Positions 33,630-36,762 of a DNA stretch of 64,000 nucleotides are shown piece after piece. Every line of letters begins with the position of its first letter. Position 1 is the first letter of the stretch. Both the position numbers and the translations under genes were made by a program. The notes beneath the pieces were generated by a model. The model was not told where the DNA came from and did not search any database. It saw only the letters and a program-made list of their open reading frames with translations. Source of the stretch: Eubacteriales bacterium (GTDB taxonomy: Bacteria; Bacillota; Clostridia; Lachnospirales; Lachnospiraceae); NCBI GenBank assembly GCA_030524455.1, contig JAUNGT010000013.1, forward strand, positions 1 through 64,000, given 5' to 3'.

Positions 33630-34529
33630 ATGCAGGGAAAAATCATCAGAGGAATCGGCGGATTTTATTATATCCACACGTCCTGCGGCGTCTATGAGTG
33701 CCGGGCCAGAGGGATTTTCCGGAAGGACAACCAAAAGCCCCTGCCCGGCGACCGGGTGCGTATCGACGTGTTGGACGAGGAGAAAAAGGAGGGCAGCATC
33801 CGGGAGATCCTGCCCCGGACCAACAGCCTGATCCGGCCCGCGGTGGCCAATGTGGATCAGGCTATGGTCATTTTTGCGCTGGCAAGCCCCAAACCCAATT
33901 TCAACCTGCTGGACCGTTTTCTGGTGATGATGGAAAAGCAGGGCCTGCCCGCGCTGATCTGTTTTAATAAGAAGGATCTGGCAGATCAGGAGACCGTTTG
34001 CCGGGTGGAGGAGCGCTACCGGGAGGCAGGCTATCCGCTCCTGTTTGTCAGCGCGGCCGCGGGAGAGGGCCTGGACGGGATCCGAAAGAGACTGCTTGGC
34101 AGGACCACCACAGTGGCGGGGCCCAGCGGAGTGGGAAAGTCCTCCCTGATCAATCTGCTTCAGGACAATGTGCGGATGGAGACGGGGGCGGTCAGCGAGA
34201 AGATCGAGCGGGGCCGGCACACCACCCGCCATACGGAGCTTTTGTGGGTGGACGAGGATACCTATATTCTGGACACGCCGGGCTTTTCCTCTATCGATCT
34301 GATCGGGGTGGAGAAGGAAGCGCTGGGACAATATTTTCCGGAGATCGCGGCCCTGGAGGGACAGTGCCGGTTTGCGGGCTGTTCCCACATCGCGGAGCCG
34401 GACTGCAGCGTCAAGGCCGCGCTGGAGGCCGGGAGGATCAGCGCCGGCCGCTATGAGGATTACAAGGCATTTTATGAGGAGTTAAAAGAAAGTCAAAGGA
34501 AAGGGGGAAGATCATGCCGGATACAGTAA
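33630..34529 (+). CDS. rsgA: ribosome small-subunit GTPase RsgA
   Basis: A late 30S assembly GTPase of 299 residues. An OB-fold (1-65) precedes the circularly permuted GTPase domain with FNKKDL (G4), GPSGVGKSSLINLL (G1) and DTPGFSS (G3). The zinc finger is CRFAGCSHIAEPDCSVK. In many Bacillota rpe and a thiamine pyrophosphokinase gene follow; here an AT-rich insertion follows directly. The last codons overlap a short open frame starting at 34514. Confidence 0.95.
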   Translation: MQGKIIRGIGGFYYIHTSCGVYECRARGIFRKDNQKPLPGDRVRIDVLDEEKKEGSIREILPRTNSLIRPAVANVDQAMVIFALASPKPNFNLLDRFLVMMEKQGLPALICFNKKDLADQETVCRVEERYREAGYPLLFVSAAAGEGLDGIRKRLLGRTTTVAGPSGVGKSSLINLLQDNVRMETGAVSEKIERGRHTTRHTELLWVDEDTYILDTPGFSSIDLIGVEKEALGQYFPEIAALEGQCRFAGCSHIAEPDCSVKAALEAGRISAGRYEDYKAFYEELKESQRKGGRSCRIQ

Positions 34530-34588
34530 GCGATATTATCGATCAGTTTGAGCAGCAAAGGAGTTGTTATTTTTGGCAGATATTTTAA
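34514..34588 (+). CDS. short open frame (24 aa) overlapping rsgA end and the RelA/SpoT-like start
   Basis: ATG at 34514, preceded by AAGGGGGAAG, reads MPDTVSDIIDQFEQQRSC and six more residues, then TAA. It overlaps the rsgA stop and runs past the TTG start of the next gene in the frame one base behind. It could be a translated leader that couples translation to the next gene, or the original N-terminus of that gene separated by a 1-nt deletion near the T5 run at 34570-34574. No function is known. Confidence 0.35.
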   Translation: MPDTVSDIIDQFEQQRSCYFWQIF

Positions 34589-35196
34589 AAAAAGATGGGA
34601 TATCTTTAGAGCTGCTGGAACAGCTTTCCTTTCACTCAAAGCTCGGAATAAACTTAAAAAAGAATCTCCATTATTTTGATGAGGATCCCCTATTTGAAGA
34701 ATTGGCATCTGTTAATGCTTGGTATGATACGACGGATTGCCTGTGCGATATAGCAATTGATTATCGTATTAAGAGCTTGCAATCTGCGAGATTGAAATAC
34801 AACAGATATTATCCGGATCACCAGACCGGTAAGGTGTTTAATGATATGCTTGGGTTTCGTGCGTTGTGTGATGATTATGAGGAAGTACTGGCATTAAAAG
34901 ATTCTGAGTACATCCGTATAGCGGATATGTCAAAGGGGAAGGCTCATGATGATGGTTATCGCGGTGTGCATGTTTATTTTCAGTTGAGTAATTTCCATTA
35001 TCCAATTGAGATACAATATAATACCTATTATGACAGACAATTGAATAACTGGCTGCATAAATATGTATATAAGAAAAATTATCCCAATAGTGTCGGTTGT
35101 TCCTTGCGGGCAGCTTATGAGAGTGGTACAATCAAGGTGGAAAAGGAGTTTAAGGAGGTGTTGAACCATGTGCTATTTGATTGCGAAGAGATTTGA
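34573..35196 (+). CDS. RelA/SpoT-fold nucleotidyltransferase-like protein (small alarmone synthetase/toxSAS-like)
   Basis: 207 residues, TTG start with AAAGGAG nine bases upstream. The centre matches the (p)ppGpp synthetase fold: DxxGFR (D91, R96), the GYRGVH segment (128-133, equivalent to GYRSxH) and PIEIQYNT (E146, Q148), followed by W160. The metal-binding Asp and Glu are conserved, so it may be active. There is no HD hydrolase domain, TGS or ACT domain. Known relatives make alarmones or, as toxSAS toxins, pyrophosphorylate tRNA or make (pp)pApp. It is much more AT-rich than its neighbours and sits where rpe is often found, so it was probably acquired. Its end overlaps the next gene by 29 bp, as in toxin-antitoxin pairs. 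Confidence 0.8.
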   Translation: MADILKKDGISLELLEQLSFHSKLGINLKKNLHYFDEDPLFEELASVNAWYDTTDCLCDIAIDYRIKSLQSARLKYNRYYPDHQTGKVFNDMLGFRALCDDYEEVLALKDSEYIRIADMSKGKAHDDGYRGVHVYFQLSNFHYPIEIQYNTYYDRQLNNWLHKYVYKKNYPNSVGCSLRAAYESGTIKVEKEFKEVLNHVLFDCEEI

Positions 35197-35392
35197 CTGT
35201 ACAGGAAGTTTGGCACTGCAGACTGTTCATGGTCAACATTTGGCGGAGTTTAAAAGACATCTGATTGAAAAAATAGGATACGATAAAATTCAGCTTGTGA
35301 CGATCAGCAGACCATCAGCCTATGGAGAATATGAGCCGTATCGTTTTGTGGATTCAGAAGAAGAGTTTGAGAAGCAAGTTGTAAATATGTGA
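35168..35392 (+). CDS. small hypothetical protein (DUF6718-like), possible partner of the RelA/SpoT-fold protein
   Basis: 74 residues; the ATG at 35168 follows AAGGAGG. It starts MCYLIAKRFDCTGSLALQ and contains IQLVTISRPSAYGEYEPY and an acidic ending FVDSEEEFEKQVVNM. From memory this is the DUF6718 family of small soluble proteins of unknown function common in gut Firmicutes. It starts 29 bp before the end of the RelA/SpoT-fold gene, so both are made from one message. By position it could be an antitoxin or a regulator of that enzyme; the sequence alone does not show this. Confidence 0.7.
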   Translation: MCYLIAKRFDCTGSLALQTVHGQHLAEFKRHLIEKIGYDKIQLVTISRPSAYGEYEPYRFVDSEEEFEKQVVNM

Positions 35393-35446
35393 TCATAAGG
35401 TTAAGGGATTATTTGGAAAATAACGGAATATTTTAAGTGAGAGAAG

Positions 35447-35482
35447 CCTCAGTAGTTAATCGATAGCTACTGGGGTTTTTTT
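35447..35482 (+). terminator. intrinsic terminator after the RelA/SpoT-like pair
   Basis: CCTCAGTAG (35447-35455) pairs with CTACTGGGG (35467-35475), followed by seven T. It ends the transcript and insulates ychF. Confidence 0.85.
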
Positions 35483-35532
35483 GTTACTTCCAATAGGACG
35501 ATCAGGCGATTGTTAAAAATATGATAATTTAC

Positions 35533-35561
35533 TTTTGAGGCTTAATATGGTACATTATAAA
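35533..35561 (+). promoter_or_regulatory. candidate promoter of ychF
   Basis: TTTTGA (35533-35538), 17 bp, TATAAA (35556-35561), about 100 bp upstream of the ychF start. The rest of this gap is AT-rich with no other recognised element. Confidence 0.45.
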
Positions 35562-35664
35562 ACAGGTATTAAGGCTCATGGTAAGAGTTTGTGTTTCTGT
35601 GTAAAAAAGGAACTCCGGTAAAAAACACTTACAAAATCAAGTATTTAAAGGAGATATATCGAAA

Positions 35665-36762
35665 ATGAAGCTAGGAATTGTCGGTTTACCAAATGTCGGA
35701 AAGAGCACTCTTTTTAATTCCCTGACAAAGGCGGGAGCGGAATCTGCCAACTATCCCTTCTGCACCATCGATCCCAACGTGGGCGTGGTTGCGGTGCCGG
35801 ACGAGCGATTGAAGCTGCTGGGCGACCTGTACCACTCCAAAAAGGTGACCCCTGCGGTGATCGAGTTTGTGGATATCGCAGGTCTGGTGAAGGGAGCCTC
35901 CAAGGGCGAGGGGCTGGGCAACCAGTTTCTGAGCAACATCCGGGAGGTGGATGCCATCGTCCATGTGGTGCGCTGCTTCGAGGACAGCAATGTGGTGCAT
36001 GTGGACGGCAGCGTCAATCCCTTGCGGGATATCGAGACAATCAACCTGGAGCTGATTTTCTCCGATCTGGAGATTCTGGAGAGAAGGATCGCCAAGGTGG
36101 CCAAGGGCGCGCGGATGGATAAGACCCAGGCCAAGGAGCTGGCGATGCTGGAGCGCATTAAGCAGCGGCTGGAGGACGGAAAGCTTGCGATCGGTTTTGA
36201 GACGGAGGACGAGGATGAGGAGGAGATTTTTAAGACGCTGAACCTGCTGACCGCCAAGCCGGTGATCTATGCGGCGAACGTGGGGGAGGAGGATCTTGCC
36301 AACGACGGCGCGGACAATGCCGGCGTGCAGGCGGTCCGGGAGTACGCCCGGGAGACGGACAGCGAGGTGTTTGCCCTCTGCGCGCAGATCGAGGAGGAGA
36401 TTTCCGAGCTGGATGACGAGGAGCGCCAGATGTTTCTGGACGATCTGGGGCTGAAGGAGTCCGGCCTGGAAAAGCTGATCCGGGCGAGCTATCACCTGCT
36501 CGGGCTGATGAGCTTTCTGACCGCGGGCGAGGATGAGACCAGAGCCTGGACCATCCGGAGGGGCACCAAGGCACCCCAGGCGGCGGGCAAGATCCACACG
36601 GATTTTGAGCGCGGCTTCATCAAGGCGGAGGTTGTCAATTATAAGGATCTGCTGGAGCAGGGCTCTCTGGCGGCGGCCCGGGAAAAAGGACTGGTCCGCA
36701 TGGAGGGTAAGGAATATGTGGTGCAGGATGGGGATGTGATTTTGTTCCGGTTTAATGTGTAA
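35665..36762 (+). CDS. ychF: redox-regulated ATPase YchF (OLA1 family)
   Basis: 365 residues; an Obg-family P-loop protein that prefers ATP and binds ribosomes. It starts MKLGIVGLPNVGKSTLFNSL, with DIAGLVKGASKGEGLGNQFL (G3). The coiled-coil insertion lies at about 125-175 and the C-terminal TGS domain at about 280-365 (TAGEDETRAWTIRRGTKAP). The ATG follows AAAGGAG. Convergent with the metal transporter operon, with only a weak hairpin between. Confidence 0.96.
   Translation: MKLGIVGLPNVGKSTLFNSLTKAGAESANYPFCTIDPNVGVVAVPDERLKLLGDLYHSKKVTPAVIEFVDIAGLVKGASKGEGLGNQFLSNIREVDAIVHVVRCFEDSNVVHVDGSVNPLRDIETINLELIFSDLEILERRIAKVAKGARMDKTQAKELAMLERIKQRLEDGKLAIGFETEDEDEEEIFKTLNLLTAKPVIYAANVGEEDLANDGADNAGVQAVREYARETDSEVFALCAQIEEEISELDDEERQMFLDDLGLKESGLEKLIRASYHLLGLMSFLTAGEDETRAWTIRRGTKAPQAAGKIHTDFERGFIKAEVVNYKDLLEQGSLAAAREKGLVRMEGKEYVVQDGDVILFRFNV

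Follow-up and report, generated by a model that had tools for sequence, protein, structure and literature searches.

What kind of genes lie in the AT-rich DNA between rsgA and ychF of this Eubacteriales bacterium, and how did they come to be there? We analyzed a stretch of 64,000 nucleotides (the window) from contig JAUNGT010000013.1. An earlier reading made from the letters alone (the sequence-only reading) had proposed that this DNA is an insertion carrying a toxin–antitoxin or alarmone module at 34514-35392.

Layout and origin of the insert

Two genes on the + strand occupy most of the 1135-bp gap between rsgA and ychF (Table 1). As proposed, the insert differs in composition from both neighbors, with a G+C content of ~38% compared to ~59% in the surroundings. 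The toxin and antitoxin genes have 37.7 and 39.2% G+C, respectively, against 58.7-59.1% in the neighbors, while GC3 is 0.36-0.39 in the two insert genes and 0.75-0.78 in rsgA, prkC, and ychF. The arrangement of the 74-residue gene was also read correctly: it starts 29 bp before the toxin gene ends (counted from its ATG through the toxin stop codon), has a strong ribosome-binding site, and is followed by a terminator. This ribosome site, AAGGAGGTG, is near-perfect and lies within the toxin gene. The segment TTTAAGGAGG, which encodes F-K-E in the toxin and holds the antitoxin ribosome site, is retained in most of 18 loci. Both open reading frames of the proposed span are in place; however, the toxin begins with a TTG codon and not at 34514. 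The ATG at 34514 was rejected as the toxin start because its frame is unrelated, stops after 24 codons, and has no counterpart upstream in relatives.

Table 1. Features of the rsgA–ychF interval (positions within the window).
Feature	Position	Strand	Basis or remark
rsgA (flanking gene)	33630-34529		
AT-rich insert, rsgA stop to ychF start	34530..35664		boundaries approximate; five congeners carry 18-111 bp vs 1135 bp
Toxin ribosome-binding site AAAGGAG	34557..34563	+	sequence; 9 nt before TTG 34573
FaRel2-type toxSAS toxin gene, 207 aa, TTG start, TGA stop	34573..35196	+	homology, residues, model
Antitoxin ribosome-binding site AAGGAGGTG	35152..35160	+	within the codons for the conserved F-(K/R)-E-x of the toxin
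ATfaRel2-type antitoxin gene (Pfam DUF6718), 74 aa, ATG start, TGA stop	35168..35392	+	homology, Pfam, model
Intrinsic terminator, strong hairpin then seven T	35447..35482	+	z = -6.5
ychF (flanking gene)	35665-36762		

The 24-codon frame (MPDTVSDIIDQFEQQ...) overlaps the rsgA stop codon, and in the region 34490-34588 the C-terminal tail of rsgA is unlike that of its congeners. The tail and the frame are probably insertion-junction sequence. The upstream regions of 18 loci could be aligned little past the first codons of the toxin and showed no shared promoter or third small gene, and an Rfam search gave no matches.

Toxin and antitoxin are each encoded once in the source genome. The pair was found in 33-34 of 397 genomes of the family and in 1 of 13 within the genus; neither gene was detected in any of the 12 congeners. 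Because the congeners lack the pair and in five of them rsgA directly adjoins ychF, with 18-111 bp between, the gap is most simply explained by the acquisition of ~1.1 kb of DNA in this lineage. The native right-hand neighbor at the junction is ychF. The sequence-only reading was right to place the pair after rsgA but not to name rpe as the usual occupant of the site: rpe is intact on another contig of the source genome, which, together with the five congeners, rules out its displacement by the insert.

No integrase is present in the rsgA–ychF gap. Relatives are carried on plasmids. A search of phage genomes found no relative of the toxin. A predicted viral contig carries a 74% identical pair ~600 bp behind a gene for a 425-aa integrase-like protein (L127:2112-4841). 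In Blautia sp. Marseille-P3201T, a toxin fragment of 46 residues, 80% identical, lies upstream of ychF (L023:5001-5177), in the order rsgA, rpe-like ORF, 217-aa ORF, toxin fragment, ychF. This suggests that the junction received the unit in two lineages or that an old insert was lost elsewhere.

Kinship with FaRel2 and ATfaRel2

The 207-aa protein matched the FaRel2 chains of the PDB over its full length (50% identity, E=4e-69). In the Pfam search, RelA_SpoT (PF04607) alone matched, at 24.2 bits just below the 27-bit cut-off, and no HD hydrolase domain was found; the synthetase motifs D91xxGxR96, GYRGVH (128-133), and E146IQ are all present. The sequence-only reading had noted these motifs and the lack of a hydrolase domain, which it took to make unregulated activity potentially toxic. 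No NCBIfam model matched either protein, and PADLOC returned only a weak PDC-S33 match to the toxin (E=6e-5). AlphaFold2 models of both proteins were built from their relatives. The toxin model superimposed on 8pu3_C with a TM score of 0.90 (E=2e-24), followed by the housekeeping enzymes RelQ and RelP at a TM score of ~0.45 (RelQ, E=1e-6). We then compared the functional residues listed for FaRel2 and ATfaRel2 (PMC11782079). Twelve of the 13 toxin residues are identical, including all 11 of the donor site and catalytic center (R64, K66, S70, K74, R77, D90, G93, R95, Y128, E145, and Q147), with the numbering shifted by +1. The tRNA-patch residues K28 and R29 correspond to K29 and K30, the change of R29 to K30 being conservative, and both lysines are invariant across a 19-row toxin alignment.

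The 74-aa protein scored 122 bits against Pfam DUF6718 (PF20476; cut-off 27) and is ~58% identical to ATfaRel2 (E=3.5e-21). ATfaRel2 itself scored 100.9 bits with the same Pfam model (E=5e-29); thus, DUF6718 and the known FaRel2 antitoxin are one family. The public name of PF20476 remains DUF6718, and the matching structures have been public since 2024. The antitoxin model matched 8pu2 (TM 0.83, E=1e-8), and a structure search with it gave no significant match outside ATfaRel2. Eight of nine contact residues are identical: V43, I45, R47, A50, Y51, Y54, Y57, and F59 of ATfaRel2 are kept, and I42 is replaced by leucine. The YxxY motif reads Y52GEY55, and R48, Y58, and F60 match the secondary-interface residues R47, Y57, and F59 of ATfaRel2. 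The segment YGEYEPYxF is invariant across a 22-row antitoxin alignment. As judged from sequence, these conserved partner contacts favor an antitoxin that would bind over the active site of the toxin.

Thus, the pair is a toxSAS toxin–antitoxin pair, as the sequence-only reading had suggested, and its specific subfamily is FaRel2. The family has already been described, with structures of FaRel2 and ATfaRel2 solved alone and together (8PU1-8PU4; PMC11782079). The antitoxin role of DUF6718, for which the sequence-only reading knew of no description, was shown earlier under the name ATfaRel2 (PDB 8PU1-8PU3; PMC11782079).

The sequence-only reading had also considered an alarmone module. The same architecture could house a FaRel/Tas1-like alarmone synthetase that makes (pp)pApp or (p)ppGpp and leaves tRNA unmodified, and the shared RelA/SpoT synthetase fold and the rank of RelQ and RelP right behind FaRel2 are consistent with this. 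However, FaRel2 is by far the closest in both fold and sequence and, as the closest characterized enzyme, acts on tRNA (PMC11559606). The N-terminal tRNA patch is invariant in the 19 aligned proteins, and the antitoxin belongs to the pZFD type, which counters tRNA-modifying toxSASs, rather than the Tis1 type, which counters (pp)pApp makers (PMC11782079). Together, these data make an alarmone product improbable and tRNA pyrophosphorylation the likelier activity. A divergent toxSAS clade (L083-L090, e.g., L087:1483-2076) is paired with DUF6718 without overlap, and FaRel2 is its closest solved structure (E=2e-26).

Pairing and one-sided loss of the toxin

In a separate genome collection, we found 22 relatives of the toxin, 21 of which are accompanied by DUF6718, starting always at the same point in the last codons of the toxin. 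This arrangement is far from chance. In 19 of the 21 cases, the toxin in front is complete or almost so, and in two (L020 and L024), part of it is missing; the remaining relative, the Blautia fragment, lacks DUF6718. The 397 genomes of the family sample hold 38 DUF6718 genes above the cut-off. Of these, 21 follow a full-length toxin, 3 show no toxin trace, and 14 follow a toxin remnant, with 10 remnants called at an E of 2e-4 or better and 4 weakly (G027 and G339 from marginal BLAST matches, G303 and G235 by visual inspection of the upstream DNA). All 21 full-length toxins are paired with the antitoxin. The neighborhood expected by the sequence-only reading was thus found, and the small family does not mostly stand alone.

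Distances among the toxins are correlated with those among the antitoxins (r=0.80, Mantel p=0.0001); the median dN/dS is ~0.11 for either gene. A nontoxic regulatory pair, in which a small alarmone synthetase with a regulator of its own is part of host physiology, would fit this purifying selection on both genes, the position among core genes, and the frequent outlasting of the toxin by the antitoxin gene, but it is hardly credible given the patchy distribution, the AT-rich foreign composition, the frequent decay, and the location of relatives on plasmids and close to a gene of integrase type.

Loss is one-sided: the toxin goes first, and the antitoxin remains, as expected if the toxin cannot persist without its antitoxin. 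The DUF6718 genes behind remnants (L099, L100, L101, L102, L104, L107-L114, and L116) have mostly retained their frame and the YGEY motif. They are possibly stand-alone protectors or decay products. Tentatively, and we consider it rather unlikely, orphan DUF6718 genes might be maintained because they guard on their own against FaRel2 toxins entering the cell ("anti-addiction" antitoxins), with the few trace-free ones next to HicB-like or DUF3990 genes serving other toxins. DUF6718 genes without toxSAS trace adjoin a HicB-like antitoxin gene (L105:2870-3324), a DUF3990 gene (L120:2504-3495), and, on a Clostridioides plasmid, an antitoxin gene labeled as VbhA family (L118:2618-3225). These neighbors are possible other partners of DUF6718.

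Proposed mode of action and significance

We conclude, with a probability of about 0.93, that the insert is a horizontally acquired bipartite type II toxin–antitoxin unit of the FaRel2:ATfaRel2 (toxSAS) family. Its layout, homology, conserved residues, pairing, and insertion at a core-gene junction directly support this conclusion. The tRNA target, the geometry of the complex, and the toxicity would be those of the characterized homolog. FaRel2 pyrophosphorylates the 3'-CCA of tRNA, with a preference for tRNA-Gly and tRNA-Thr (PMC11559606), and ATfaRel2 forms a 2:2 complex with it in which the YxxY tyrosines block ATP (PMC11782079). As the contact and catalytic residues are identical, this mechanism is by far the likeliest for the present pair. 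By analogy, the toxin would pyrophosphorylate tRNA 3'-CCA ends, and this capping very probably stops protein synthesis. In a 2:2 complex with the toxin, the 74-residue partner would add a strand to the toxin sheet and push Y52 and Y55 into the ATP site. An antitoxin ATG stronger than the toxin TTG, with a ribosome site in the last codons of the toxin, would ensure an excess of antitoxin. The choice of tRNA may differ from the Gly/Thr of FaRel2, since the acceptor-stem region varies among toxSASs and R29 of FaRel2 is K30 here.

FaRel2:ATfaRel2 comes from Coprobacillus sp. D7 (Thomasclavelia ramosa; PMC11782079, PMC11559606, and PMC10565793). The present pair resembles it in the full length of both proteins, the catalytic and contact residues, the bicistronic order, and the predicted folds. 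It differs in sequence (~50 and ~58% identity for toxin and antitoxin), in the tRNA patch, in L43 in place of I42 and one extra residue before strand beta3 of the antitoxin, and in its location, a chromosomal insertion at the rsgA–ychF junction. The same RelA/SpoT and DUF6718 order, with a ~45% identical toxin, is found on the Clostridioides plasmids pCd5_2 (NZ_CP037841), where the overlap is also 29 nt, and NZ_CP067350; in contrast to the present pair, these are plasmid-borne, and their antitoxins are more distant (39-42%). CapRel(SJ46) is likewise a toxSYNTH enzyme with an ATP site blocked by YxxY tyrosines but unites in one chain what are two separate genes here, and its antitoxin domain doubles as a sensor of a phage capsid protein (PMC9712102 and PMC11782079). 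RelQ and RelP share the synthetase fold; however, they make (p)ppGpp and have no paired antitoxin.

The role of the unit, whether phage defense or maintenance of the element, is a matter of speculation. The analogous CapRel makes phage defense plausible (PMC9712102), but FaRel2:ATfaRel2 itself gave no protection in Escherichia coli against the phages tried (PMC11559606). For annotation, many entries labeled "DUF6718 family protein" or "hypothetical protein" can now be given a function, FaRel2 antitoxin. The locus places a toxin–antitoxin pair, predicted to cap tRNA, at a junction of chromosomal core genes in a gut-type, Lachnospiraceae-like bacterium. The one-sided decay, starting with the toxin, is relevant to the persistence of such pairs.
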